A DNA stretch of 15,135 bases from Gemmatimonadota bacterium. Lineage in GTDB: Bacteria > Gemmatimonadota > Gemmatimonadetes > Longimicrobiales > Longimicrobiaceae. Below are positions 773-15,135 of the stretch, piece after piece. Where the stretch lies: NCBI GenBank assembly GCA_019240375.1, contig JAFAYN010000086.1:1-15135 (forward strand), written 5' to 3'. The position numbers and the translations under genes were made by a program. The notes beneath the pieces were generated by a model. The model had not been told where the DNA came from and made no database searches. It saw nothing but the letters and a program-made list of their open reading frames with translations. The stretch's first letter is position 1. Every line of letters begins with the position of its first letter.

Positions 773-996
773 ACGGCAGGTCAAAGAGAAGGGTCGGCAT
801 CCACGCGGATGCCGGCCCTTCGTTGTCGTTCCGCCGTTCCCTGCGGTTCCCAGAAGATGTTGCGGAGGGAGACGCGCCCGGCGGTTCGGGCGTGGCTCCC
901 GTAGCGGTCGGGGAGACTGCCAGCAGTACCAGCAGGCTCGCCGGCCCCGCGGAAGAGACGGACGGTAGTTTCGTCCGGCTCTGGAGCGGCCCGCCA
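773..996 (+). repeat. Structured ~225-bp repeat, copy A (candidate RNA element, four hairpins)
   Basis: Copy A of an element repeated at 2088-2314 in the same orientation. Homology runs from ACGGCAGG to GCGGCCCGCCA. Hairpin 0 (789-820) has a 14-bp stem with an ACGC loop. Hairpin 1 (867-900) has GGGAG/CTCCC, an A872-G895 mismatch, then 7 bp (873-879 with 888-894). Hairpin 2 (906-946) has a 10-bp lower stem with one G-G mismatch (912/940), an A916-G936 mismatch, then CTGC/GCAG. Hairpin 3 (947-989) has CCGC/GCGG, a symmetric GGA/GGA internal loop, AGAG/CTCT, an A958-G978 mismatch, then CGGACG/CGTCCG. G-U pairs at 794/815, 874/893 and 908/944 would be A-C or C-A on the minus strand, so the + strand is the likely RNA sense. 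It lies 3' of the RecQ gene and could be a 3'-UTR element, a separate small RNA or a mobile repeat. I recognise no known family. Confidence 0.7.
789..820. terminator. Possible intrinsic terminator (hairpin 0 of repeat copy A)
   Basis: A 14-bp stem (789-802 with 807-820, one T-G pair) closes on an ACGC loop. On the + strand it is followed by CGTTGTCGTT, a broken T-rich run. Read on the minus strand, the stem is followed by CTCTTT. Either could give weak termination, but neither tail is a clean T-tract. The matching hairpin in copy B has a better tail. Confidence 0.35.
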
Positions 997-1017
997 CCAC
1001 ACACCGGAAGCCAGCGG

Positions 1018-1046
1018 TTCCAAGCCGTCGCCCCGCGAGTTATCTT
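1018..1046 (+). promoter_or_regulatory. Weak candidate sigma-70-like promoter for the 1088-2059 gene
   Basis: TTCCAA at 1018-1023 and TATCTT at 1041-1046 are separated by 17 bases. They match the consensus boxes at 3 of 6 and 4 of 6 positions. The -10-like box ends 41 bases before the ATG at 1088. This is the only AT-leaning patch in the region, but the match is weak and the assignment is tentative. Confidence 0.2.
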
Positions 1047-1087
1047 CTTCCCTGCCAACGTCCAACCGCCGTCCATCACGAGGCCGA

Positions 1088-2059
1088 ATGCCGCAGCCAC
1101 TCCCCGAACGGACGCCCTCCGCAGGCTCCGACCTGCTTTCCGATCAAAGAGCCCGCGAGGCGTTGCGCCGGGCCGCGCAGCTCCAGGCGGAGGCGGTCGA
1201 GCGGCTGGAGCAGCAGGCCCGCCGGAGAATCCAGGCTCAGACCGGGGAGGAGAGCGAGCCGGGCGGCTTCCGGCGTGAGGACGTCGAGTCGGCGGCCGTG
1301 GAGGCCGGAATCTCGGTGGAGTTCATCCGCCAGGCGCTGCTGGAGCAGGAAACGCTGGGGGAGGAAGCGGCCGACCTGGCGCCCTGGGTCGACCGGGTGG
1401 GGAGCCGGATGCTCCGGACGCGGGAACGGAGCATCCAGCTTTCCCGGATCGTGGACGCGGAGCCGTCCGTGGTGCTGGAGGCGATGCAGCGCGTCTTCCC
1501 CTCCCAGCCGTACGGGATGACGCTGGTGGACTCGCTCGGGGGGCTGCCGCTGGAAGGGGGAGTGCTCGTCTTCCAGCTCCCCCGGATCACCATGTCGGGG
1601 AGCACCTCCATGACCCCGTTCGCCTACGCGGCGACGACCGTGGACCTGTCCCAGCTCCACGTCTCGCTCCGGGCGGTGCCGCTGGGGGAAAGGACCGGGT
1701 GCGAGCTCACCCTGCGCGGCGACCTGCGCCCCGGCCTGCGCCGCAACGTGTGGGTGGGGCTCGCGCTCTCCGGTGTGACGGGCGGGCTGGGGATGACGAT
1801 CGCCGTGACGGCCGCGATCGCGTCCGGCGCCCTCCTCCCGCTGCTCGCGGGAGGCGCAATAGCGGGGCTGGGCGGCGTCAGCGCGTTCGGGTACGGCACC
1901 ATCTACCGCTACTACCTGAAGAAGCTGATCGGCGAGCTGGAAATGCTCCTCAAGGTCGTGGACACCACTGCGCGGACGGGGGGCGGGTTCCGCTTTCCGG
2001 CGCCCCCGGCCGGAAGCGGCGGCACCGATACCTTCCTCTCGCTCCTCGGCCCGTCGTAG
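1088..2059 (+). CDS. Hypothetical membrane protein with charged N-terminal helix and two hydrophobic segments
   Basis: A 323-residue protein of unknown function. ATG at 1088 is preceded by a weak CGAGG ribosome site at 1079-1083; the gene ends with TAG at 2057-2059. Residues ~18-50 form a strongly charged, Ala/Arg/Glu/Gln-rich helix, probably coiled coil. Residues ~60-90 (GFRREDVESAAVEAGISVEFIRQALLE) resemble a short helical module that I recall at the N-terminus of other hypothetical proteins from this phylum. The middle (~95-215) looks like a soluble alpha/beta region without a recognisable motif. Residues ~222-246 and ~248-272 are two glycine/alanine-rich hydrophobic segments, probably a transmembrane hairpin, followed by a basic YYLKKL and a Gly/Pro-rich tail. 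There is no signal peptide. The gene stands alone between the two direct copies of the structured repeat, with copy B starting 29 bases after its stop. Codon use is ordinary for this GC-rich DNA, and long antisense frames across it are shadows. Confidence 0.8.
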   Translation: MPQPLPERTPSAGSDLLSDQRAREALRRAAQLQAEAVERLEQQARRRIQAQTGEESEPGGFRREDVESAAVEAGISVEFIRQALLEQETLGEEAADLAPWVDRVGSRMLRTRERSIQLSRIVDAEPSVVLEAMQRVFPSQPYGMTLVDSLGGLPLEGGVLVFQLPRITMSGSTSMTPFAYAATTVDLSQLHVSLRAVPLGERTGCELTLRGDLRPGLRRNVWVGLALSGVTGGLGMTIAVTAAIASGALLPLLAGGAIAGLGGVSAFGYGTIYRYYLKKLIGELEMLLKVVDTTARTGGGFRFPAPPAGSGGTDTFLSLLGPS

Positions 2060-2087
2060 GGAGCAGCCCGGCGTTTCGAGGACCGAG

Positions 2088-2314
2088 ACGGCAGGACAGA
2101 GAGCAGGGCGGGCATTCGCGCGAATGCCCGCCCCGCGTGTTTTTCGCCGTTGCAGTTCCCTGCCGTTCCCACATGCTGTTGCGAGGGAGACGCGCCCGGC
2201 GGTTTGGGCGTGGCTCCCGTAGCGGTCGGGGAGACTGCCGGCTGTATCGGCAGGCTCCCCGGCCCCGCGGAAGAGACCGGCAGCAGTACCGCCGGGCTCT
2301 GGAGCGGCCCGCCA
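2088..2314 (+). repeat. Structured ~225-bp repeat, copy B (candidate RNA element, four hairpins)
   Basis: Copy B of the element at 773-996, same orientation, lying between the convergent ends of the unknown membrane protein (stop 2059) and the D-aminoacylase (stop 2329). Hairpin 0 (2106-2133) is a perfect 12-bp stem with a GCGC loop. Hairpin 1 (2185-2218) is the same as in copy A except for one loop base. Hairpin 2 (2224-2264) has a 10-bp lower stem, an A2234-G2254 mismatch, CTGCCG/CGGCAG and a GCTGTAT loop. Hairpin 3 (2265-2307) has CCGC/GCGG, GGA/GGA, AGAG/CTCT, an A2276-G2296 mismatch, CCGGC/GCCGG and an AGCAGTACC loop. Against copy A, paired changes keep the stems: 795-814 C-G to 2110-2129 G-C; 801-808 C-G to 2116-2123 T-A; 960-976 G-C to 2278-2294 C-G; 962-974 A-T to 2280-2292 G-C. 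A conserved GTTCCC-rich linker separates hairpins 0 and 1. Confidence 0.72.
2106..2144 (+). terminator. Likely intrinsic terminator of the 1088-2059 gene (hairpin 0 of repeat copy B)
   Basis: A perfect 12-bp GC-rich stem (2106-2117 with 2122-2133, loop GCGC) is followed by CGCGTGTTTTT, which includes five T at 2140-2144. It begins 47 bases after the stop codon of the upstream + strand gene. The T-run starts a few bases after the stem, so efficiency may be moderate. It forms the first hairpin of the larger repeat. Confidence 0.6.
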
Positions 2315-2328
2315 AGACAGCCAGAACC

Positions 2329-4050
2329 CTACCGGGCACCCACAGAACCACCCCGCCGCAAAGCACGCCCCGGACGCGCGCCAGTAACCTCCCCGTTCCT
2401 CACGACCGGAACACCATTCACCAGCACGTGCCGGATCCCCACCGCCGTCCGGACCGGGTTCTCGAACGTCCCCCGGTCGCACACCGTCTCCGGGTCGAAC
2501 AAGGTCAGGTCCGCGAACATCCCCGCCTTGACCACCCCCCGGTCCGCCAGCCCCACCCGCGCCGCGGGCAGGGCGCTGAACTTCCGCACCGCGTCCTCCA
2601 GCGTGATCACGTGCCGCTCGCGCACGTAGTGGCAGAGGATGCGAGGAAACGACCCGTACGCGCGAGGATGTGGGTGCTCCGCCACGGTGGAGTCCGCCGC
2701 CCGCGCCCCGGCGTCGATCCCCACGCTCACCCACGGCTGCCGCATCCCGTACTCGATGTCCTCTTCCGACATGGAAAAGTAGATCGCCGCGGTCCGCGAC
2801 CGGTCGGCCAGCAGCAGGTCGAAGAGCGCGTCCACCACCTCCTGCCCGCGCGCCTGCGCCACCTCGTCCAGCCGCATCCCCTGGTACTTCCGCAGCGAGT
2901 CCGCGCCCACTCCGGCGATCATCACCCCGTGCGGCCCCCCGGCCGAGGTCCCGATCCGCCAGTCGGAGCCGCCGCCCCCGCTCCCGCCCAGCTCCTCGCG
3001 CAGTCTCGCCCGCGCCTGCGGATCGCGCAGCCGGGCCAGGAGCGAGTCCGTCCCCCCGGCGTGCGCCCAGTTGGGGATGATGGCGTCCAGGTCGGTCCCG
3101 GAGGCGGCGTACGGGTACTGGTCGGCGCTGACGTCCACCCCGCGCGCCCGGGCCGAGTCGATGGCGGCGACGGCCTGCCGCATCTTCCCCCAGTTGGGGC
3201 GGCCGGACGCCTTGAGGTGGTGGATCTGCACCCAGGTCCCCGCCCCCTCCCCGATCCCGATCGCCTCGTGGATGGCCTCCACCAGCCGGTCGCCCTCGGA
3301 GCGGATGTGCGAGGCGTACCCGCCGCCGTACGCCGCCGCCACCTTCGCCAGCTCCGTCACCTCCTCGGTGGAGGCGAACGAGGTGGGGGCGTAGATCATC
3401 CCGGTGGAAAGCCCCATCGCCCCCTGCCGCATCGCCTCCGCGACCAGCCCCTTCATCCGCTCCATCTCCTGCGGGGTCGGGGCGCGGGAGGCGTCGCCCA
3501 TCACCGCGCGGCGCACCGAGCCGACGGTGACGAAGGTCCCCAGGTTGATGGCGGGCTTCGCCGCTTCCAGCACCCGGAAGTACCCGTCCAGGTCGCGCCA
3601 CCGCGGCGCGCGCTCGTCGCCGGGCTCCCCCTGTCCGCCGGTGCTGGCCGGGACGGGGACCACGCTGGTCACCTCGCCGGTGATCTCGGAGGTGATCCCC
3701 TGGGTGATCTTGGAGATCGCCCGCCCGTCGCGGAGGAGCGGGTACTCGGAGTGCCCCAGCATGTCGATGAAGCCGGGGGCCACCACCAGCCCGGTGGCGT
3801 CGATGGTGTCGCGGGCGCGGGCCCGCGGCATGAGCCCCACGGCGACGATCCGGTCCCCCGTGATGGCGACGTCGCCCCGGTACCAGGGGCTCCCCGTCCC
3901 GTCCACGATCCGCCCGCCGCGAATCAGCAGGTCGTAGGTGGGCATGCCGGGCGCCGTGGACGCGGAGGGGTTCGCGGCGCACCCGGACAGGGCGACCACG
4001 GAGAAAGCGGCGGCGATAGTGGAGACCAGGGAGCTGCGGAGCTTCGGCAT
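2329..4050 (-). CDS. N-acyl-D-amino-acid deacylase (D-aminoacylase), lipoprotein
   Basis: A 573-residue amidohydrolase-superfamily enzyme, last gene of the cluster. By family it removes the acyl group from N-acyl-D-amino acids. The N-terminus is a lipoprotein signal with lipobox LSGC (Cys24), so it should act outside the cytoplasm. The fold is marked by an N-terminal urease-type strand region (DLLIRGGRIVDGTG), the barrel start APGFIDMLGHSE (91-102), GITSEITGE (118-126), GGYASHIRSEGD (243-254; His248), QIHHLK (275-280; His278), GVDVSADQYPYAASGT, and a C-terminal ADLTLFDPETV...NP close to the family ending. As I recall, studied D-aminoacylases have HxH at the barrel start and a metal-bridging Cys after GVTT. 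Here the first His is Leu (LGH) and the Cys region reads TGEV, so Glu126 may be the bridging ligand. The start at 4050 follows the kinase stop by 51 bases; no strong ribosome site is visible. A dipeptidase or other D-amino-acid amide substrate is possible. Confidence 0.86.
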   Translation of the reverse strand: MPKLRSSLVSTIAAAFSVVALSGCAANPSASTAPGMPTYDLLIRGGRIVDGTGSPWYRGDVAITGDRIVAVGLMPRARARDTIDATGLVVAPGFIDMLGHSEYPLLRDGRAISKITQGITSEITGEVTSVVPVPASTGGQGEPGDERAPRWRDLDGYFRVLEAAKPAINLGTFVTVGSVRRAVMGDASRAPTPQEMERMKGLVAEAMRQGAMGLSTGMIYAPTSFASTEEVTELAKVAAAYGGGYASHIRSEGDRLVEAIHEAIGIGEGAGTWVQIHHLKASGRPNWGKMRQAVAAIDSARARGVDVSADQYPYAASGTDLDAIIPNWAHAGGTDSLLARLRDPQARARLREELGGSGGGGSDWRIGTSAGGPHGVMIAGVGADSLRKYQGMRLDEVAQARGQEVVDALFDLLLADRSRTAAIYFSMSEEDIEYGMRQPWVSVGIDAGARAADSTVAEHPHPRAYGSFPRILCHYVRERHVITLEDAVRKFSALPAARVGLADRGVVKAGMFADLTLFDPETVCDRGTFENPVRTAVGIRHVLVNGVPVVRNGEVTGARPGRALRRGGSVGAR

Positions 4051-4101
4051 GAACGGTCGGAGCGAAGGGGGCGGATCAGGATGAAGCGTGCGGAGCCGGC
4101 C

Positions 4102-5022
4102 TCAGGCGTGCGCCAGGAGCGCCCGCGCGTAGCGCAGCGCCCCGGCCACCGCGTCGGCCACCGGGGGGCGCACCTGGAAGGGGTGGCCGGTCTCGTCCAG
4201 CGCCCGGGCCACCAGCCCGGAGTACAGCTCGGTCCCCAGCACCCCGCCGTGGAAGACCACCGGGACCGGCGCGGTCCAGGGACCCAGGCGGGCGTACAGG
4301 GCGACCACGTGCAGCGCCAGCTGGCGCGCTTCCCGCTCCACCAGCGCGCGGGCGACGGCATCCCCCTCGCCGGCGGCGACGATCACGTGCGTGCAGAGCG
4401 CGGCGATCTCGGCCTTGGACGAGCGTCCCACCCAGGGGGGGATCCCCAGCGTGTCGGCCAGCTCCAGCACCTCCAGGAAGAGGGGGAGGAGACGGGTCGG
4501 CTCGCCGCGGCCGTCGTCGGCGCGGAGGGCGGCGGCCAGCCCGCCGCGGCCGATGGCGTAGCCGCTCCCCTCGTCGCCCACCGTCATCCCCCACCCGCCG
4601 CACCGCTCCTCGCGGCCGTCCTCGGCACGTCCGTAGGCGATGGAGCCGGTCCCGGCGATCACCATGATCCCCGCCCCGCCCCCCAGCGCCCCGTCCAGCG
4701 CGATCTCGCCGTCGGTCACCACCCGCACCCGCCCGGCGAGCCCGGCGGCGGACAGCGCATCCTCCACCGCCTGCCGCTCGGTGGCGTTCCCCACCCCGGC
4801 CAGCCCCGCGCAGAGCGCTTCCGGGGGGTGGCCGATCCCCGCCTCGTCGATGGCCTCCCGGATCACCCTGGCGACGATCTCCGCGGCGGCGGTCGGGTCG
4901 CGCGGGTCCACCAGCCCGGCGGGTCCCACCCGCCGGGCCAGCTCCCGTCCCTGCTCGTCCGCGAGGGCGACGGTGGTCTTGGTCCCCCCACCGTCCACCC
5001 CCGCGATGTATCGGGTCGGCAA
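4102..5022 (-). CDS. N-acetylglucosamine kinase-like protein (BadF/BadG/BcrA/BcrD ATPase family)
   Basis: A 306-residue sugar kinase of the ASKHA fold, expected to phosphorylate GlcNAc (or a related N-acetylated amino sugar) at C6 in the cytoplasm. The phosphate-1 loop is DGGGTK (10-15). TDGEIAL contains the likely catalytic Asp104, the phosphate-2 loop is GTGS (124-127), and GGWG plus GDEGSGYAIGR (142-159) is characteristic of NAGK-like members. GGVLG near the C-terminus is the adenosine-side motif. The start is TTG at 5020-5022: it is the only plausible start ahead of the DGGGTK loop, and an AGG lies five bases upstream, overlapping the end of the preceding gene. The upstream NagB fusion ends in TAG at 5029-5031 in the same reading frame, so the two proteins are separated by one stop and two codons. 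Context (GlcNAc-releasing enzyme, symporter, NagB) supports GlcNAc; MurNAc or glucosamine kinase activity remains possible. Confidence 0.87.
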   Translation of the reverse strand: MPTRYIAGVDGGGTKTTVALADEQGRELARRVGPAGLVDPRDPTAAAEIVARVIREAIDEAGIGHPPEALCAGLAGVGNATERQAVEDALSAAGLAGRVRVVTDGEIALDGALGGGAGIMVIAGTGSIAYGRAEDGREERCGGWGMTVGDEGSGYAIGRGGLAAALRADDGRGEPTRLLPLFLEVLELADTLGIPPWVGRSSKAEIAALCTHVIVAAGEGDAVARALVEREARQLALHVVALYARLGPWTAPVPVVFHGGVLGTELYSGLVARALDETGHPFQVRPPVADAVAGALRYARALLAHA

Positions 5023-5040
5023 CGCGGCCTACCCCCGCAC
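5020..5040 (-). promoter_or_regulatory. Translation-coupling site: NagB-fusion stop, ribosome site and TTG start of the kinase
   Basis: Read on the minus strand the junction is GGGGG-TAG-GCC-GCG-TTG. The TAG ends the NagB fusion, and AGG (overlapping the stop) acts as Shine-Dalgarno for the TTG. Both genes share a frame. This arrangement favours re-initiation by the same ribosome and would turn any stop readthrough into a NagB-PIG-L-kinase fusion. Confidence 0.6.
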
Positions 5041-7032
5041 CGCCTGGCCGCCCAGCTCGCCGACCTCGCTCCCGGCGCCTCTCCCCAGCCCGGGCGTGCT
5101 CCCGGACCCGTAGGCCGGGTGGTCGGTGGCGCGGCGCATCCGCGCCGGGTCGCCCAGCGCGCTGGTGGGGACCGTTTCCGGCTCCAGCCGCTGACCGTTC
5201 TTGCGCACCACGTAGGCTTCCATGGCGAAGTACTCGGGAAGCCCCAGGCGGTCCACGATGCGCGCCGTGGCGGTGTTCCGCTCCTCCACCCGCTGCCAGA
5301 ACTCGCGTTCGTCCTGCCCCGGGAAGGGGGCGCGGTCCTTCTGGCTCTGGTGCTTGTAGATGGCGAGGATCTTCAGCTCCAGCTCGTCCTCGGAGAGCGG
5401 GACCATCACGTCCGCCTCGGACACCGGCCACTCCTGCCAGGCGCCGCGGTAGTACCAGAGCTCCGGCGGGTCGCCCGAGTACTGCTGCAGCGCCTGCTCC
5501 ACCGCCTGCAGGCACATGCGGTGGGTGCCGTGCGGGTCGGACAGGTCGCCGGCCACGAACACCAGCTCCGGGCGCTGCTCTTCCAGGAGCTGCAGGGTGA
5601 TCTCCACGTCCTTGGGACCGATCGGGTCCTTGCGGACCTTCCCCGTCTGGTAGAAGGGGAGGTTGAGGAAGCAGGCGTTCTCGCGGCTCATCCCGAAGGT
5701 CTCGATGCCGGACACCGCCTCGGCCTCGCGGATGCGCTGCTTGATCCGCTGCACCTCGGGGATGTCCACCTGCCCGGGGTGCTTGCTGTCCAGGAACCCC
5801 TCGATCCGGTCGGTCAGCTCGGTGACCTGCCCGTCGGCCACGTGGAAGTCGCGGTCGAACCGGCGCAGGAAGTCCATGTAGCGCCGCACCTCGTGGTCGA
5901 AGACCGCGATGTTCCCCGAGGTCTGGTACGCGACGGTGATCTCGTTCCCGTTCTGGTGCAGCTTGTTGAGGATCCCCCCCATGGAGATCACGTCGTCGTC
6001 CGGGTGCGGCGAGAAGACGATGATCCGCTTCCCCGAGGGGAGCTTGCTCCTGCCGCGGATCTTGGAGATCAGCGCGTTGAACACCTCGCCGTTCAGCGGC
6101 CCGGCCGCGCCGTAGCGCGCCAGGAGCGAGGAGAGGTGGTGCTCGCGGTAGTCCTCGGCGTCCAGCTTGAGCACCGACTTCCCCGTGCTCCCGCTCAGCC
6201 AGATCACCGCCTCGATCTCAAGCTTGCGGGTCCACTTCACCTCGCCCACCACCCAGGGCGTCTTGATGCGGGTCAGCTCCGCCGCGGCCGCCGGGTCCAC
6301 GTAGAAGGCGGCGGCGGGGTGCTCCTGCAGGTAGGTGGCGGCCACGTCCGGGTCGGGCTCCCCCTCCACCGAGCGCCGCACGATCACCGCCTTGTGCTCG
6401 CCGGTGGCGATCAGGGCGATCTCGCGCGCCTCCATGATGGTGGCGACGCCCATGGTGATCGCCTCGGTGGGGACGTTGTCCTCGCCGAAGAAGTCGGCCG
6501 CGGCGTCGCGCCGGGTCACCGTGTCCAGGGCGATCAGGCGGGTGCGCGACTCCATCCCCGAGCCGGGCTCGTTGAAGCCGATGTGCCCCGTCTTGCCGAT
6601 CCCCAGGATCTGGAAGTCGATCCCGCCGGCGTCGCGGATCGCCTGCTCATACGCCGCGCAGTGCGCCTCCACCTCCTCGCGGGGGAGGTCGCCGCGGGGG
6701 ACGTGCACGTTCTCCGGGCGGATGTTGATGTGCTCGAAGAGGTTCTCCCACATGTACCGGTGGTACGAGTGGATGCTCTTCGGGTCCATCGGGTAGTACT
6801 CGTCGAGGTTGAAGGTCACGACGTCGGAAAAGTCGAGCCCTTCCTCCCGGTGCATCCGGATCAGCTCCCGGTACACGCCGATGGGGGTGCTCCCCGTCGC
6901 CAGCCCCAGCACGGGCGGCTTCCCGGACTCGCGCTTGGCCTGCATGACCTCGGCGATCCGCCGGGCGACGGTACGCGCGATCTCGTCGTACTCCACGATC
7001 ACCACGGGTACCCGTTCACGAACTTGCGCCAT
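5029..7032 (-). CDS. nagB: Glucosamine-6-phosphate deaminase fused to a PIG-L/LmbE-type deacetylase
   Basis: A 667-residue cytoplasmic two-domain enzyme. Residues ~10-275 are NagB, which converts glucosamine-6-phosphate to fructose-6-phosphate and ammonia: LATGSTP (44-50), FNLDEYY (74-80, catalytic Asp77), GIGKTGHIGFNEPGS (144-158, His150 and Glu155) and SRTR. E. coli NagB, as I recall it, has Asp where Thr148 sits. After a ~60-residue linker, residues ~335-560 form a PIG-L domain: SPHPDDD (341-347) and DPHGTH (499-504) supply the zinc-binding Asp/His set, so deacetylase chemistry looks intact. The same fusion is known from Bacteroidota. Because the locus has a GlcNAc kinase but no nagA, the PIG-L domain may deacetylate GlcNAc-6-phosphate; this is inference. 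The start at 7032 has a clear AAAGGGAGA ribosome site directly upstream. It follows the symporter by 66 bases. The last ~45 residues are low-complexity Gly/Ser-rich. Confidence 0.93.
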   Translation of the reverse strand: MAQVRERVPVVIVEYDEIARTVARRIAEVMQAKRESGKPPVLGLATGSTPIGVYRELIRMHREEGLDFSDVVTFNLDEYYPMDPKSIHSYHRYMWENLFEHINIRPENVHVPRGDLPREEVEAHCAAYEQAIRDAGGIDFQILGIGKTGHIGFNEPGSGMESRTRLIALDTVTRRDAAADFFGEDNVPTEAITMGVATIMEAREIALIATGEHKAVIVRRSVEGEPDPDVAATYLQEHPAAAFYVDPAAAAELTRIKTPWVVGEVKWTRKLEIEAVIWLSGSTGKSVLKLDAEDYREHHLSSLLARYGAAGPLNGEVFNALISKIRGRSKLPSGKRIIVFSPHPDDDVISMGGILNKLHQNGNEITVAYQTSGNIAVFDHEVRRYMDFLRRFDRDFHVADGQVTELTDRIEGFLDSKHPGQVDIPEVQRIKQRIREAEAVSGIETFGMSRENACFLNLPFYQTGKVRKDPIGPKDVEITLQLLEEQRPELVFVAGDLSDPHGTHRMCLQAVEQALQQYSGDPPELWYYRGAWQEWPVSEADVMVPLSEDELELKILAIYKHQSQKDRAPFPGQDEREFWQRVEERNTATARIVDRLGLPEYFAMEAYVVRKNGQRLEPETVPTSALGDPARMRRATDHPAYGSGSTPGLGRGAGSEVGELGGQAVRG

Positions 7033-7098
7033 GTCTCCCTTTAACCGTTCTGAATGTCTTCGAGAGGGGTTCCCGGGCGAGATGCACGAATTGCACCT

Positions 7099-8927
<1,829 letters not shown>

Positions 8928-8931
<4 letters not shown>

Positions 8932-10781
8932 GGGCGGGCCTCCGGGACAGGGTTGGCCGCGACGCGCGGCCGGACGTCGCGCCGGATCCCGGCGCCGCGC
9001 GGGAGCAGGGGAGGGAGCGAGACGGGGAGCCGTCCGGTGATCGGGGACTCCCCCAGGAGGGCGCGGGCGGCGGCCCGCTGGCTCACCTCCGCCCCGCCCC
9101 AGGCGAGGAGGTATGCCGGGACCGAGGGGAAGTCGCCCAGCACGTACGGGCTCCCGAAGGCAATCGCGACCAGCGGCTTCCCGGAGGCCGCGATCTCCTC
9201 GAAGAGCCGGGCCGCGCCGCCCCGGGCATCGACGCTCCCCCGGTGCTCGCGCGGAGACACGTAGACGGAGGCCAACACCAGGTCGGCACCGGCCGCGGCG
9301 GCGCGCAGCGAGTCCAGCTCCGCCGGCGTGGTGCGGTCGTCCACCCGCGCCCGGTCCACCCGGGCACCGCCTTCGGCCAGGGCGGCGTCGAAGGCGCGCC
9401 CGGCCACCATGTCCGTGGGATCGGCGTAGGTGACGACCAGGATCCGGCGGGCGCTCCCCGCGAGCGGGACCAGCCCCCGGTCGTCCCGGGCCAGGGTGAT
9501 GGATCGCTCGGCGATCCGCCGCGCCAGCTCGGTGTGGGCGCGGATCCCCACCACCCGGTCCACCCCGTCCAGCGGAACCAGGCGCCCGCCGCGAAGCCCG
9601 GCGCGCGCCTTCATCTCCAGGACCCGCCGCACGGAAGCGTCGATCCGCGACTCCTGGATCCGTCCCGAGCGGACCGCGGCGGTCACCGCCTCGATCGCGG
9701 AGTGCACGCTGCGCGGCATGAGCAGCACGTCCGCGCCCGCCTCCACCGCCCGCACCGCCGCGTCCTCGTCCCCGTAGCGCTTCACCACCCCGCCCATGTC
9801 CAGGGCGTCCGTGAACAGGACGCCGTCGAAGCCCATTTCCTTCCGAAGCACGTCCGTCATGAAGTACGGCGAGAGCGTCGCCGGGGGCGCGTCCGGCCCC
9901 AGCACCCCGACCACCGCGATGTGCGCGGTCATGATCCCGTCGATCCCGCCCCGCACCGCGGCCCGGAACGGGACCAGCTCCACCCGGTCCAGCCGCGCCC
10001 GGTCGGCGGTGATGGTGGGGAGCTCGATGTGCGAATCCGCCCGAGTGTCCCCGTGCCCGGGGAAGTGCTTTCCGGTGGCGAGGAGCCCGGCGGCGTGGGT
10101 TCCGCGAATATACGCCTCCCCCATCCGCGCGACCAGAGCCGGGTCCTCGCCGAAGGAACGGGTGTTGATGATGGGGTTTTCCGGGTTGGAGTTGACGTCC
10201 AGCACCGGCCCGAAGGTCATGTGCACCCCCACCGCCCGTGCCTCGGCCCCCAGCACCCGCCCCAGCTCGTAGGCGAGCGAGTCGGAACCGGCGGCGCCCA
10301 GCGCCATCACCGGCGGGAAGTCGGTCCCTCCGCCCTGCGGGAGGAGGTACGGGAGGGCGTAGATCCCCGCCATGCGCATCCCCGGGCCGTTCTCCATGTC
10401 CGAGGCCACCAGGAGCGGGAGGGGGGCGCGCCGCTGCAGCTCGTTGAGCTTGGCCGCGTAGCTGTGCGGGAGGCCAATGGACAGGATCACCCCGCCCACC
10501 CGCTCCCGCTCCACCCAGTCGAGGAGGTGGTCGAACTCCGGGGAATCGGCGGCGACGTACTCCCCGCTCACCCAGGGCATCACCAGCTGCGCCACCCGCT
10601 CGCGCAGCGTCAGCGAGCGAAGGGTGCGCTCCACCCAGGCGTGGTCCGCGGCGGCGAGGGACCCTGCCGCGTGGGACGGGGCGAGGGGGGCGGAGGGCGG
10701 GCTCGACACGGCGGGCGCGCACCCCGCCAGGGCGAGCAGGAGACAGGCGCGGGCGTACGCGCCCGGCTGGAATCGGGGCAT
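8928..10781 (-). CDS. NagZ-like glycoside hydrolase family 3 beta-N-acetylglucosaminidase, lipoprotein
   Basis: A 617-residue GH3 enzyme expected to cleave terminal beta-GlcNAc from muropeptides or chito-oligosaccharides. The N-terminus is a lipoprotein signal with lipobox LAGC (Cys21), placing it on a membrane facing the periplasm. The first domain (~45-400) is the TIM barrel. It carries KHFPGHGDTRADSH (238-251), the NagZ-type Asp/His acid-base pair (Asp249, His251), and VLFTDALDMGG with the likely nucleophile Asp325. A second alpha/beta domain (~410-617) makes it a long form, like Bacillus subtilis NagZ (YbbD), rather than the short single-domain E. coli enzyme. The ATG at 10781 was chosen because it gives the signal peptide and is preceded by GAGGA at normal spacing; the open frame continues upstream into shadow sequence. 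It follows SusD by 83 bases, including a strong hairpin, and overlaps the symporter start by four bases. Confidence 0.93.
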
Positions 10782-10824
10782 CGGGTCCTCGGGATTCCGG
10801 GTGTGGTGGAGGTCGTGGTGGTCG

Positions 10825-10854
10825 AAGGGCCCGGCGCTCCCGCGCCGGGCCCTT
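10825..10854 (-). terminator. Perfect 13-bp hairpin between susD and the GH3 gene (attenuator or processing site)
   Basis: AAGGGCCCGGCGC (10825-10837) pairs without mismatch with 10842-10854 around a four-base loop. It begins 10 bases after the SusD stop on the minus strand. The 3' side ends in TT then CGACC, with no T-tract, so full intrinsic termination is unlikely. Likely roles are a stabilising 3' end for susCD mRNA, a partial terminator, or an RNase stop that keeps the outer-membrane proteins more abundant than the enzymes. Confidence 0.6.
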
Positions 10855-10864
10855 GCGGATGGCC

Positions 10865-12163
10865 TCAGCTCATCCCTTCGCTCTGGCCGACCGGCCAGCA
10901 GGTCACGCCGCCGTACCGGTACGGCACGCCGTCCGGGTACCCGCCCATCGCCCCCCTGGGCCACAGGTCCACGCCGTGGTGGGCCTGGTAGCGGAGCAGG
11001 TCGGGGAGGCGGTACCCCGCGAAGTACAGGTCCATCATCCGCTGCGCGCGCTCCTCGCCCTTGAGGTCGGAACCGGTGAACGGACCGTGCCCCCCCACCG
11101 CGCGCCGCGCGTTGAGGAACGACAGTACCTCGCCCTGGCTCCATCCGCCACTCCCGCCCCACAGACTGGCCTCGGCCAGGATGTGCTGCGCCTCCAGCCC
11201 CGACGCGAACATGATGTCCGCGTCGTCGCGGATCCGGGTGGTGTTCCCGGGGGTCCACCCCTCGAAGGAGTACGGCGTGTACGGCAGCAGCCCCACGCGC
11301 CCCTCCGGCTTGCTGGTGAACATCCGCCGGGGGCTCGGATCGTACGGGAGGCGGAGGTCCGTCCTCGCCGCGCTCCAGTCCTTGGGGTCGAGCGCCAGGT
11401 TGAACTCGTTGGGATCGCGCAGCCCCGAGGTGCGGTTGTACAGGTTGTAGACGTTGACCCAGTCGTCCCAGTTGGGGCTGGAGGAGAAGCGGACCCAGGC
11501 TTTGAACTGCGGGTCCACCTTGCGGGCGTAGGAGATGGCTTCGTTCAGGTTCCACCGGTTCAGGTAGGCCCGCGCGATCCCCACGTTGGCCAGGTTGACC
11601 AGGGTGTCGTTGCGCGCGGCGGTGGCGAGGTCCACCGCCTGCTTCAGGTAGGCGATGGCGGTGTCGTACGCCTCGTCGCGCGAGACCAGCTTCCCGCCGA
11701 TGGCGACCTGGCACTGGTAGTCGGCCAGGAGGAGGGTGCTGTACCCGGCGTACGCCCAGGCCCGGGCCTCCAGCGCCCCCGTCCCCTTCGCCGCGACGGC
11801 GTTGTTGCGCGAGGTGGTGCGGGCCGACGCCATGTAGCCGTAGCCGATGCAGTCGTGGGGGCACCCCACGCCGGAAAGGTCGCGCTCGTCGTAGTCCTCC
11901 CAGGGCGACCAGCCGTGCGCGAAGATGGCCTCGTCGGTCGCGGCGGCGCCGCTGTTGGCCACCCAGTTGAAGGCCCGCTTGTACTGGCTCTCGGAGGCGT
12001 TCACCAGCGCCTGCGCGGCGTTGGGGTCGCCCTGCAGGTCGCCGGGGAGGATCAGGTCCTTGCGGTCCACGTCCAGGAGGCTGTCGCACCCCGCCGCCCC
12101 CGCGAGCAGGACGAGCGCGGGGAGCGCCACCCCCAGCCGACGGTGCAAGCTCGTTCGTTTCAT
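10865..12163 (-). CDS. SusD/RagB-family outer-membrane lipoprotein
   Basis: A 432-residue SusD-like glycan-binding lipoprotein that would sit as a lid on the SusC pore. The signal peptide MKRTSLHRRLGVALPALVLL ends in lipobox AAGC (Cys26), followed by DSLLDVDRKD, the usual SusD start. The alpha-helical body is visible as repeat-like segments: ALVNASESQYKRAFNW, LEARAWAYAGYSTLLLADY, AYDTAIAYLKQAVDLA and VNLANVGIARAYLNR. The C-terminal part carries AQHILAEASLW and LSFLNARRAVGG, typical of the family, then RMMDLYFAGYRLPDLLRY. It is slightly short for a SusD. The ATG at 12163 has an AAAGGTGA ribosome site at good spacing. It lies 35 bases after the SusC stop. Ligand specificity cannot be read; the downstream enzymes suggest a GlcNAc-containing glycan. 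Confidence 0.93.
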   Translation of the reverse strand: MKRTSLHRRLGVALPALVLLAGAAGCDSLLDVDRKDLILPGDLQGDPNAAQALVNASESQYKRAFNWVANSGAAATDEAIFAHGWSPWEDYDERDLSGVGCPHDCIGYGYMASARTTSRNNAVAAKGTGALEARAWAYAGYSTLLLADYQCQVAIGGKLVSRDEAYDTAIAYLKQAVDLATAARNDTLVNLANVGIARAYLNRWNLNEAISYARKVDPQFKAWVRFSSSPNWDDWVNVYNLYNRTSGLRDPNEFNLALDPKDWSAARTDLRLPYDPSPRRMFTSKPEGRVGLLPYTPYSFEGWTPGNTTRIRDDADIMFASGLEAQHILAEASLWGGSGGWSQGEVLSFLNARRAVGGHGPFTGSDLKGEERAQRMMDLYFAGYRLPDLLRYQAHHGVDLWPRGAMGGYPDGVPYRYGGVTCWPVGQSEGMS

Positions 12164-12198
12164 GGTTTCACCTTTCGGTTCCGCGAACCGGATGGGGA

Positions 12199-15135
12199 TC
12201 AGAAGCTCACGTCGATGGAGGCGGTGATCCGCCGCAGCATGGGCATGGTGAAGAAGTCCTGCCGGACCCAGGCGTAGTCGGCCCCGGGCTGGTCGAGCCC
12301 CGCGAACGACACCTCCGGGTCCAGCCCTGTGTATTCGCCCTTCCACAGGAAGCCCAGGTTGTGGCCGGCCAGGGTGAGCGCCATCCGGTCGGTCCGGAAG
12401 CGCCGGGCGAGGGTGGAGGGGACGGTGTAGGTGAGCGAGACGTCGCGCAGCTTGACGAAGTCGGCCCGCTGCGTGTACAGGGCGTCCGCGTCCTTGAGCG
12501 CCACGCTGGTCAGGAGCTTCTTCCGCTCCGCCGGCACGGACGGGTCGTTCATCTCCTCGCACACCGCCGCCTGCGAGCACCGCCAGTACTCGGTGGCGTT
12601 GAGGAGGTAGTTCCCGCCCTTGTAGTCGACCAGGGTGAAGAGCCGCAGGTTCCCCAGCACGGTGAAGGTGTTGGAGAGCGACGCCTCGCGGGTGGGGAGC
12701 GACGGCCCCAGGTAGCGCACCGGGCCCGCGGTGTACTGCCCGTCGGCGCCCAGCACCGGGTCGCGGACGAAGAAGGCCCCCAGCGGGTGCCCCACCACGT
12801 GCAGCTGGCTCACGCTCCCGGTGGGCCCCGCGCCGAAGCGGATGGTGTCCTGCGCGATCCCCAGGTCCGCGATCCGGTTCCGGTTGGTGGACAGGCTCAG
12901 CCGCGTGTCCCAGGTCAGGGCGCGCCCCTGCAGGGGCGTCCCGGTGAGCCCCAGCTCCAGGCCCCGGTTGCTGATCCGGCCGACGTTCTGGAGCTGGCTG
13001 TAGTTGGGGATCCCCACCTCCGACACCGGGATCGGCACCGGGATCAGGGCGTCGCGGGTGGTCTTGTCGTAGGCGGTGAACTCGATCCCCAGCCGGTTGC
13101 CGAGGAACGCGGCGTCGAACCCCGCCTCGAACTCGCTCCCCCGCTCCGGGCGGATGTCGGGGTTGCCGATCTGCGCCAGCGCCGGGTAGCGGATCTCCTG
13201 CCCGGAGGCGTCCACCCCGGTCGCCATGATGTAGTACGTTTCGCGCGCCACCGACCCGGGCGCGTTCCCGGCCTGCCCCCACGCCGCCCGCAGCTTCAGC
13301 TCGTCCAGCCACGACCGGCCGCGGAAGACCGGCCCCTCGGTGGCGACGTACGACACGGAAAGCTTGGGGTAGTAGAGCTGCTTGATGTTCTGGCCGAAGA
13401 CCGAGCTGTTGTCCACCCGGAGCGCCCCGGTGACGAAGAGCCGGTCGGACCACCCCAGCTGCTCCTGGCCGAAGAACCCGAGCGAGCGGGTCTGGTTGAA
13501 CTCGTCCCACCCGCGCAGCACGTCGGCCTGGCTGACGGTGGACGCCTTGCCCACCTCGAAGTTGGTCCCCTGCGCGATGGCGTTTCGGTACGTGGTGGTG
13601 GTGTACTGCGCGCCGAAGGAGAGCGCCGAGGTCAGCGACCCGGTCAGCGCCCGCTCGACGGTCCCCGCGTAGTCCAGCGAGTACACCGTCTGCCGGGGGG
13701 AGCCCTCGGTCACCTGCCCGCCGGTGGGGAGGAGGCCAATGTCGTTGCGGGGGACGTAGCGGACCGCGCGCCCCGCGTTCAGGTCGCCGCCGATCACCAG
13801 CCGGTTCCGGAACCAGTCCGCCGGGCGGAAGTTCAGCGTCGTCCCCAGGATGATCCGGTCGCCGCTCAGCGAGTTCTCGTACCGCGCCAGCTCGGCGGGG
13901 GTGTTCCCCAGACCGTACACGCGCCCCGGGAGGGGGGTGCGCCCCGGCTGGTACATCAGCGCGCCCTGCACCGCCCCGGAGGAGTTGTCCAGGAGCGGGA
14001 TGTTGGTGCGGCTGCGGGTGTAGCCGAGGTTGACGGAGAAGTCGACCCTGTCGGTCGGGTAGAAGGTGAAGTTGCCGCGGGCCCCCGTCCGGTCGCTGGT
14101 GCTGTTGCTGAAGACGCCGTCCTCGCCCGTGTCGTCCAGCGCGGCGAAGAACGAGTACCCCTGGCCGCCGCCCCGCACCGAGAGCGAGTAGCCGGTCAGC
14201 CCGCCGGTCTGGAGCACCTGGTCGAGGAAGTTCTCGGTGAGCACGGTGCCGGTGGGGACGCTCGTGCACCCGAACCACTCCGCCGCGGCCGCCTGGTGCG
14301 CGGCGTCGCAGGTGGTGTAGTTGGCCGGCCGGGCGAGAGCCCAGTCCGACGACCCCGCCTGGACGCGGGCGTTCCACTCCAGCTTCTGCTCCCCGGGCTT
14401 TCCCTTCTTGGTGATGATCTGGATCACCCCGTTTGCCGCGTCGGCCCCGTACAGGGTGGAGGCCGCCGGCCCCTTGATCACCTCGATCGACTCGATGTCC
14501 TCGGGGTTGATCGCGTCGAGCGCGCTGACCGCCTGCCCGCCCCCGCCCGCGGTGACGCTCTGGTCCTGCGAGGGCTGCTGGTAGCTGTTCTTGAAGTTCC
14601 CCGCGTGTCCGGAGTAGACGCGCACCCCGTCCACGTACACCACCGGGGCGGAGTTCGCCGCCAGCGAGGTGACGCCGCGGATGCGGATGTTCCCGGCGGT
14701 CCCCGGCGCGCCGCTGCTGGCGCTCACCGACATCCCCGGGACCTTGGCCTGGAGCAGCTCGGTCACGCTGTTGTTGGCGACCACGTGGCTCACCTCGGCC
14801 ACGTTGATGGTGGAGATCGCGTTCCCGACGGTGCGCCGGGACACGGCGCCCGCGGTCCCGGTCACCACGATCTCGTCGAGGGCGACCGCCGCGGCCGAAA
14901 GGGCGAAGTCCGCCTCCGCGGGCGTGGAGGGCGCGACGACCACCGCCCGCTCGGCGGCGGAGAAGCCGAGGAGGGAGGCCCGCACACGGCGGTTCCCGGA
15001 GGGGACGTTCACCAGCGTGTACCGGCCGGCGGCGTCGGTCACCGCCGCCAGCCCGGTGCCCACGACGGCGACCTGCGCCCCGCTCAGCGGGCGCCGCGAC
15101 CCCGCTTCGGTGACGGTCCCGCGGACCGTCCCCTC
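12199..15135 (-). CDS. SusC/RagA-family TonB-dependent outer-membrane receptor (5' end outside window)
   Basis: The visible 978 residues are nearly the whole protein; the frame is open through the right edge, and only the signal peptide and the first part of the N-terminal domain are missing. The start of the visible part is a carboxypeptidase-regulatory-like beta-sandwich (GTVRGTVTEAGS...PLSGAQVAVVGTG...TDAAGRYTLVNVPSG), typical of SusC. DEIVVTGTAG follows, then the TonB plug: LLQAKVPGMSVSASSGAPG, IRIRGVTS, APVVYVDGVRV, DIESIEVIKGPAASTLYG and NGVIQIITKKGK. The rest is a 22-strand type beta-barrel ending in SIDVSF, with the terminal Phe expected of outer-membrane barrel proteins. It forms the import pore paired with SusD immediately downstream. 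The transported ligand is probably a GlcNAc-containing oligosaccharide, by gene context only. The promoter and any regulator lie outside the window. Confidence 0.95.
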   Translation of the reverse strand, partial: EGTVRGTVTEAGSRRPLSGAQVAVVGTGLAAVTDAAGRYTLVNVPSGNRRVRASLLGFSAAERAVVVAPSTPAEADFALSAAAVALDEIVVTGTAGAVSRRTVGNAISTINVAEVSHVVANNSVTELLQAKVPGMSVSASSGAPGTAGNIRIRGVTSLAANSAPVVYVDGVRVYSGHAGNFKNSYQQPSQDQSVTAGGGGQAVSALDAINPEDIESIEVIKGPAASTLYGADAANGVIQIITKKGKPGEQKLEWNARVQAGSSDWALARPANYTTCDAAHQAAAAEWFGCTSVPTGTVLTENFLDQVLQTGGLTGYSLSVRGGGQGYSFFAALDDTGEDGVFSNSTSDRTGARGNFTFYPTDRVDFSVNLGYTRSRTNIPLLDNSSGAVQGALMYQPGRTPLPGRVYGLGNTPAELARYENSLSGDRIILGTTLNFRPADWFRNRLVIGGDLNAGRAVRYVPRNDIGLLPTGGQVTEGSPRQTVYSLDYAGTVERALTGSLTSALSFGAQYTTTTYRNAIAQGTNFEVGKASTVSQADVLRGWDEFNQTRSLGFFGQEQLGWSDRLFVTGALRVDNSSVFGQNIKQLYYPKLSVSYVATEGPVFRGRSWLDELKLRAAWGQAGNAPGSVARETYYIMATGVDASGQEIRYPALAQIGNPDIRPERGSEFEAGFDAAFLGNRLGIEFTAYDKTTRDALIPVPIPVSEVGIPNYSQLQNVGRISNRGLELGLTGTPLQGRALTWDTRLSLSTNRNRIADLGIAQDTIRFGAGPTGSVSQLHVVGHPLGAFFVRDPVLGADGQYTAGPVRYLGPSLPTREASLSNTFTVLGNLRLFTLVDYKGGNYLLNATEYWRCSQAAVCEEMNDPSVPAERKKLLTSVALKDADALYTQRADFVKLRDVSLTYTVPSTLARRFRTDRMALTLAGHNLGFLWKGEYTGLDPEVSFAGLDQPGADYAWVRQDFFTMPMLRRITASIDVSF

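Follow-up and report, generated by a model that had tools for sequence, protein, structure and literature searches.

The question raised by contig JAFAYN010000086.1 of a Gemmatimonadota bacterium (Longimicrobiaceae; assembly GCA_019240375.1), analysed here over its full 15,135 nucleotides (nt; hereafter the window), is what kind of element is present there in two direct copies. A sequence-only reading had described the copies as an unrecognised element of four hairpins with compensatory base changes, indicative of selection for RNA structure. Our analyses revealed that they belong to a large extragenic family in which three hairpins with covarying stems are built on a nearly invariant scaffold, while the terminal parts of the hairpins (heads) form a different set in every readable copy. 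The explanation that we favour, tentatively and at a little short of even confidence, is that the family acts as a selectively maintained, folded plus strand (most likely RNA) at gene ends, and that its heads are exchanged between copies as cassettes.

The two copies were recovered at 773-996 (copy A) and 2088-2314 (copy B), with an ungapped match of 137 nt at 88%, and the substitutions reported between them were found base by base. Hairpin 0 has C-G in copy A and G-C in copy B at one pair (795/814 and 2110/2129) and C-G and T-A at another (801/808 and 2116/2123), while hairpin 3 has G-C and C-G (960/976 and 2278/2294) as well as A-T and G-C (962/974 and 2280/2292). A T-G pair at 794/815 is C-G at 2109/2130, and the wobble pairs thought to favour one strand were present, G-T at 874/893 and T-G at 908/944, with their copy B equivalents checked by eye. 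Folding of each copy surpassed 200 of 200 dinucleotide shuffles (z = -4.5 for copy A and -4.4 for copy B).

The impression of just two copies did not survive a search of the genome to which the window belongs (G000; 632 contigs totalling 3.46 Mb, 62% complete; the window is its contig C453), which carries about 90. A similarity search with 281 nt around copy A, in which 40 of 139 candidates were scored, gave 63 matches, including 40 strong ones. A covariance model (R1) was built on 41 of the 42 distinct copies then gathered, excluding one truncated by a contig end. With 150 of 4,335 candidates scored, R1 returned 96 rows in G000, comprising 84 elements at 111 bits or more, seven weaker matches at places of their own and five shadows on the opposite strand; matches below 45 bits were excluded from the G000 element set. 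Decayed copies were few, judging from these 84 strong and seven weaker matches. A second covariance model (R2), built on 28 sequences and run with 140 candidates scored per genome, bore out the expectation of many copies, with 90 in G000, 14 in G001 (same genus as G000; 96% complete), 52 in G006, 34 in G007, two in G004 (93% complete) and one in G008; the other 15 genomes of the same family gave none, so that carriers amount to six of 21. Under stricter filters and with at most the best 48 matches per genome, R1 gave 15, 46, 33, 2 and 1 copies in G001, G006, G007, G004 and G008, respectively, and none in 40 genomes from other families of the order. The element exists in genome-specific sub-versions.

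The exact hairpin 3 pattern was present in eight of 395 genomes of the phylum; two of these matches, outside the family (G095 and G182, one each), look like chance, a backwards control having also given one. A stricter pattern retrieved 23 stretches from GTDB contigs, all of them from the Gemmatimonadetes metagenome-assembled genomes RYN_364 or CSSed162cmA_48. A viral source was rejected, as the pattern was absent from viral contigs, and a search of these contigs for relatives of the gene flanked by the two copies returned nothing useful. The family also stood as unrecognised: no Rfam entry reached its gathering score in the window and none matched at E ≤ 1 in eight loci from six genomes, and a known RNA family was rejected on these zero matches. 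Within the portions of the literature available, no account of the element was found for this lineage under palindromic, repeat and noncoding RNA subjects.

Covariation proved to be real when evaluated in an alignment (A2) of 28 sequences from five genomes and four genera, from which three loci with unclear hairpin 1 or length (L075, L071, and L234) were omitted. In this alignment, 91.2% of cells were paired and both sides had changed in 10 of 30 pairs. The covariation score was 0.215 compared with 0.077 (standard deviation 0.007) in shuffles, none of 500 reaching the observed value, and slid controls scored at most 0.069; further pair types (19), one of five covariation measures, were not above shuffles (192 of 500 reached this count). 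The arms of G000 heads matched their own partners better than re-dealt arms in each of hairpins 1-3, with 0 of 2,000 shuffles reaching the observed match. The corresponding shuffle counts were 41 of 2,000 for hairpin 1 and 6 of 2,000 for hairpin 2 in G001, 28 and 12 of 2,000 for hairpins 1 and 3 in G006, and 194 of 2,000 for hairpin 1 in G007; hairpin 2 showed no excess in G006 (1,678 of 2,000) or G007 (2,000 of 2,000), where unequal arms were read out of register. The plus strand is likely the acting one, because of the purine-purine mismatches, the A/C-rich and T-poor tail and the folding energies, the plus strand folding better in 81 of 97 elements (mean difference 4.2 kcal/mol). The molecule is most likely RNA rather than single-stranded DNA (ssDNA), although ssDNA would yield the same pairs.

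The shared unit spans about 130 nt and consists of a leader and three hairpins, usually followed by an A/C-rich tail. Its order is a leader with at least one GYNGTTCC-like motif, then CGGAGGGAGAC-(head 1)-GGCTC, a linker, GGNCGGGGAGAC-(head 2)-GGCTCACCGGCC and CCGCGGARGAGAC-(head 3)-GGCTCYGGAGCGGYCC, and variants occur. Every hairpin stands on a foot GAGAC...GGCTC containing an A.G mismatch, its stem being free in sequence but self-complementary, and its loop is mostly GYNGTWY (strict motif in 403 of 456 heads). The features of the window copies are as follows.

Hairpin 0 of copy A, 788-821, plus strand: separate terminator-like module outside the shared unit.
Leader of copy A, 832-862, plus strand: GCCGTTCCC / GCGGTTCCC motifs, from the alignment of 41 copies.
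Hairpin 1 region of copy A, 863-905, plus strand: GAGAC foot at 869-873, head at 874-893, GGCTC at 894-898, then CCGTAGC.
Hairpin 2 of copy A, 906-946, plus strand: GG(T)CGG(G)GAGAC, head at 918-934, GGCTC at 935-939, (G)CCG(G)CC.
Hairpin 3 of copy A, 947-992, plus strand: CCGC, GGA/GGA internal loop, foot at 955-959, head at 960-976, GGCTC at 977-981.
End of hairpin 3 of copy A, 983-992, plus strand: GGAGCGGCCC.
Tail of copy A, 993-1018 (approximate extent), plus strand: A/C-rich across the family as a whole.
Hairpin 0 of copy B, 2106-2133, plus strand: separate terminator-like module.
Leader of copy B, 2151-2181, plus strand: from the alignment of 41 copies.
Hairpin 1 region of copy B, 2182-2223, plus strand: GAGAC at 2187-2191, head at 2192-2211, GGCTC at 2212-2216.
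Hairpin 2 of copy B, 2224-2264, plus strand: GAGAC to GGCTC at 2231-2257.
Hairpin 3 of copy B, 2265-2310, plus strand: GAGAC to GGCTC at 2273-2299, with the end GGAGCGGCCC at 2301-2310.
Tail of copy B, 2311-2328, plus strand: the open reading frame (ORF) of the next gene, on the minus strand, ends at 2329.

In the 41 copies gathered by similarity, the A.G foot mismatch was invariant in hairpins 1 and 3, and in hairpin 2 the A was invariant and the G present in at least 90%. Across 97 elements it was found in 97, 94 and 97 of hairpins 1, 2 and 3, respectively, counts that are partly built in, as feet were required by the reading pattern. Hairpin 3 has in addition a symmetrical GGA/GGA loop between foot and base, which the reading pattern did not require and which showed A.G in 97, G.G in 77 and G.A in 94 of the same elements. 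An optional outer stem is present in hairpin 1: the 43 copies with CTCCG had CGGAGG in 40, TGGAGG in one and a misread sequence in two, and never the shortened CGAGG, which goes together with GTAG (18 copies; GTAG with CGGAGG in 14). The base motif before hairpin 2 was GTAG in 33, CTCCG in 43 and neither in two of the 78 readable G000 copies; the G001 and G006 loci displayed have bases other than GTAG there, and hairpin 2 has an additional outer segment in G006 and G007 loci. Both G004 copies (L070/L156 and L075/L172) have minimal heads without the loop motif; by eye, one of them abuts a copper-transporting ATPase-like gene and the other lies 229 nt from a multicopper oxidase-like gene. The tail occupies 20-30 nt after the last base and is T-poor and A- and C-rich independently of the direction of the next gene (104 elements; 67 tails before a convergent and 28 before a codirectional gene). 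A protein-coding reading was ruled out, as head lengths vary by non-multiples of three (10 to 20 nt for hairpin 1 in 41 copies).

The description as a four-hairpin element was upheld for hairpins 1-3, which form the shared unit, but not for hairpin 0, which is a variable, separate module. Among the 42 distinct copies, 15 match the model built from the two window copies (228 positions) only from position 48-65 onward, and the sequence upstream of the shared unit varies between copies as a mosaic of other repeats among the loci listed. Both window hairpins 0 score as terminator-like, and their compensatory changes are real but are a property of another module. Intergenic regions of G000, including 651-770 of the window and the sequence upstream of many copies, contain further repeat modules arranged as a mosaic; counted on both strands of 80 G000 loci that partly overlap, CCCCCAATTCTGGGGG occurred 40 times, CGCCCCCATCC 48 times and GGGGTGAGGGCC 29 times.

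The variation of the heads was analysed with a stricter head reading, on which the head counts rest; the foot/linker and loop-base tables rest on a looser reading, in which some heads ended early at an inner GGCTG. At 78 of the 84 G000 places the heads were readable, and all 78 head triplets were distinct. Readable sequences were also all distinct in G006 (36 from 44 loci), G007 (25 from 29) and G001 (13 from 15), with no identical pair among 152 readable copies. Nearest neighbours in G000 were alike at a median of 92.6%, and only two of 3,003 pairs reached 97% or more. Positions 1, 2 and 3 had 41, 39 and 23 distinct heads in G000, respectively; positions 1 and 2 share two heads and neither shares any with position 3. 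Among 131 pairs of heads with a single difference, this lay at loop position 3 in 70, anywhere in the arms in 27, at loop positions 2, 6 and 7 in 28, and was unreadable in six, which is the pattern that would be left by constraint with one free base, or by one mutable base.

In the 78 G000 copies, the arm type was linked within a head to the rest of the loop (z 8.3-18.7) and to the free base (z 5.1-6.8), while no linkage was detected between heads (z 0.0, -1.0, and 0.3). Head 2 was unlinked to the adjoining backbone on either side (z -0.7) and head 3 to the preceding linker (z 0.9); weak linkage was found for head 1 with its own foot (z 2.2) and linker (z 4.5) and for head 3 with the base that follows its foot (z 3.8). 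The backbone itself was linked across head 1, where foot and linker pair as a stem (z 21.8), and between the first linker and the base that follows hairpin 3 (z 7.3). Mutual information had little power in G006, G007 and G001, where most heads are singletons. The simplest reading of this pattern is that whole heads, delimited near the feet, may be transferred from copy to copy.

The suggestion that an RNA element would hold a fixed position relative to genes applied in part: a strong 3'-end preference was found in G000, but there was no fixed orientation, and G001 showed no preference. Genes of G000 were predicted by our own codon-usage caller, seeded with six window ORFs. For the 84 G000 elements, the next gene was convergent in 58 of 80 cases, with its stop no more than 40 nt from the 3' end of the element in 45 of these 58; where it was codirectional (22 cases), it started at a median of 102 nt. 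The 5' side is distant from genes, with a median of 236 nt to an upstream stop (55 cases) and 40 nt or less in two of the 55. In the 72 copies with both neighbours called, the arrangement was convergent in 36, codirectional in 15 and 17, and divergent in four, and 17 of the 72 have both neighbouring genes on the opposite strand.

Comparison of sites between genomes revealed both persistence and gain. Two of the 15 G001 loci (C417 and C211) share site and orientation with G000 elements (C521 and C323, respectively), the flanking proteins being 74-85% identical, so some copies are old because these two sites are common to G000 and G001. Between C521 and C417 the scaffold is similar and all three heads are different. 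All three usable G000 sites, picked for conserved-looking genes rather than at random and with gene names read from the sequence rather than from a family search, were empty in G001. At the gap/pgk site G001 carries other sequence, and G006, G007 and G008 are without any spacer; at the truA/purB site G001 has a short spacer. At the rny site the genes overlap by GTGA in G001 (C12, L198) and are 457 nt apart in G000 (C611, L093); these 457 nt, which contain the element in antisense, sit exactly at the place of the overlap and leave both reading frames intact. Loss from G001 at this site appears unlikely, because the overlap would have to be restored. At the one rny junction read, GTGA already forms the gene overlap of the empty site, so that a target-site duplication is indistinguishable. 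The amidohydrolase of the window, with a best G001 match of 46% identity, was unusable for such a test.

According to the explanation favoured here, the leader precedes three consecutive rods, each of which presents a foot GAGAC/GGCUC with its A.G mismatch and mostly a loop GYNGUWY. The rod stems would need only to pair, and a putative protein would read feet and loops. The element would guard the border that separates a transcript from the gene after it, by termination, insulation or 3'-end protection. Copies would enter intergenic sites, once at an overlapping-gene junction, and then stay intact, and heads would swap as short cassettes, by ectopic gene conversion or by a switch of template at the hairpins, with a separate pool supplying each of the three positions. 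A combinatorial version, in which each copy across the genome holds, on a scaffold common to all, a unique three-head set taken from positional pools, with cassette ends at GAGAC/GGCTC, and serves as a locus tag read by one protein, is rather doubtful.

Several observations weigh against the favoured explanation. In 58 of 80 G000 copies the closest gene downstream runs antisense to the plus strand, a placement that excludes a cis-acting element of the 3' untranslated region with one fixed sense. The 13 G001 loci counted, which omit L187, matched at 23 bits, and L175, which lacks an upstream gene, were convergent in two, codirectional in five and five, and divergent in one, with no convergent preference. 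Linkers 1-2 and 2-3 are hardly linked to each other (z 1.6; 136 of 2,000), and the independence of heads could stem from repeated replacement in place within a small allowed set rather than from exchange. The covariation could come in part from correction of hairpins at the DNA level. G-T cells in stems were fewer than A-C cells (27 and 110), which at face value speaks against the plus strand; most of this count comes from the pair that closes the loop and from a single basal G-T pair of hairpin 1, arms of unequal length having been read out of register.

The most serious of the other explanations, although unlikely, is a selfish non-autonomous element akin to miniature inverted-repeat transposable elements or repetitive extragenic palindromic (REP) sequences, with hairpins recognised as ssDNA by a transposase encoded elsewhere and without host function. 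Its dispersed and patchy occurrence in six of 21 family genomes, the genome-specific sub-versions and the absence from G001 at three of three usable sites all agree with this, as does the 3'-end preference, which resembles that of REPs as described in PMC3733652. Y1 transposases are encoded by the carriers G006, G007 and G008; the partner-protein search, aimed at Y1 only, gave no Y1_Tnp (PF01797) match in the carriers G000 (62% complete), G001 (96%) and G004 (93%), and matches were also obtained in G003, G005 and G011, where the element was not found, and in G025, outside the R2 search. A GTAG or CGTC tag beside the palindrome was not conserved, and a REP system with its associated tyrosine transposase (RAYT) was rejected on the missing transposase in G000, G001 and G004 and the lack of a conserved tag, though G006, G007 and G008 have Y1. 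No longer, gene-containing copy was seen among about 100 listed of 160 matches to the hairpin 1/2 pattern, and neither an autonomous parent nor split copies appeared among the same listed matches, G000 being incomplete; by eye all of these matches lie at R1 places except C217, C338 and C309:7-40. The rarity of near-identical G000 pairs, the absence of any identical pair in the readable set and the few decayed copies likewise argue against a selfish element.

An architectural or binding site at the DNA level, comparable to bacterial interspersed mosaic elements (BIMEs) as sites for gyrase, a nucleoid protein or recombination, would act as cruciform or duplex without being read as RNA. Palindromes, the lack of a fixed gene orientation and the 3'-end and convergent placement in G000 are what such a site would show, but the strands are non-equivalent, the A/C tail and both kinds of mismatch (A.G and GGA/GGA) being kept in one sense, and a duplex would not require free covarying stems, and we regard this explanation as improbable. 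More improbable still is that the copies are old neutral repeats without function, whose stems are kept complementary by template-switch repair of hairpins in the DNA. The complete turnover of heads at the shared site C521/C417, with pairing retained, fits this idea; such repair should, however, erase the almost invariant A.G and GGA/GGA mismatches, and it gives no reason for fixed loop bases 1, 4 and 5 beside a variable base 3, a comparison in which the loop-base reading itself required G at position 1, G/T at 4 and T/C at 5.

Among known systems, integron attC sites are hairpins with conserved feet and variable terminal structure; they appear to share with the element the combination of conserved foot and variable head and differ from it in that three hairpins stand in tandem here. 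Rfam families resemble it as covarying structured elements, but none matches. REPs are palindromic, extragenic and present in many copies, lying mainly downstream of coding regions and between ORFs that converge or run in one direction, according to PMC3733652 and PMC3116915. The likeness to REP, BIME and REPIN families, as far as these sources describe them, lies in the many extragenic palindromic copies, placed mostly at gene 3' ends in G000 and not in G001. The element has three different hairpins with one direction and a fixed order, in contrast to units of 20-40 bp or inverted doublets, and it further differs in the lack of a RAYT-type Y1 transposase in G000, G001 and G004 and of a GTAG/CGTC tag, and in its covarying, independently assorting heads. 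The repeats bcr1-bcr18 of the Bacillus cereus group are lineage-specific and intergenic, some of them resembling miniature inverted-repeat transposable elements and some structured and transcribed within untranslated regions, as outlined in PMC3446304. Lineage specificity, intergenic position and, for some, a conserved secondary structure are shared with them; they belong to another phylum and, as far as described there, have another anatomy, the distinction being one of description rather than of sequence. Within the literature searched, the element appears as an undescribed anatomy and mode of variation in the wider class of structured repeats interspersed in bacterial genomes.

Regarding the surroundings of the two copies, a promoter scan of 600-2400 gave no match on the plus strand and a single match on the minus strand, at 784-755. 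The gene between the copies (1088-2056, plus strand) is without a Pfam match. On the minus strand, 2332-15063 carries a cluster resembling those for amino-sugar use, with a TonB receptor, a GH3 protein, a symporter, a BadF/BadG-type ATPase and an amidohydrolase; the same cluster encodes a protein in which a glucosamine-6-phosphate isomerase domain is fused to a PIG-L deacetylase domain. An ARAGORN call of tRNA-Arg(ccg) at 8064-8154 (minus strand), within the sodium:solute symporter gene, is probably false.

As a rule, interspersed repeats in bacteria are either near-identical copies that a transposase has spread or decaying remnants. In contrast, G000 holds about 90 copies on a nearly invariant scaffold, in which 78 of 78 readable copies are distinct and the heads are independent of each other; we know of no described repeat family with a near-invariant scaffold, all-unique copies and independently assorting heads. 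This makes two matters testable, namely what preserves old extragenic copies, and what moves hairpin heads of 15-20 nt between loci.

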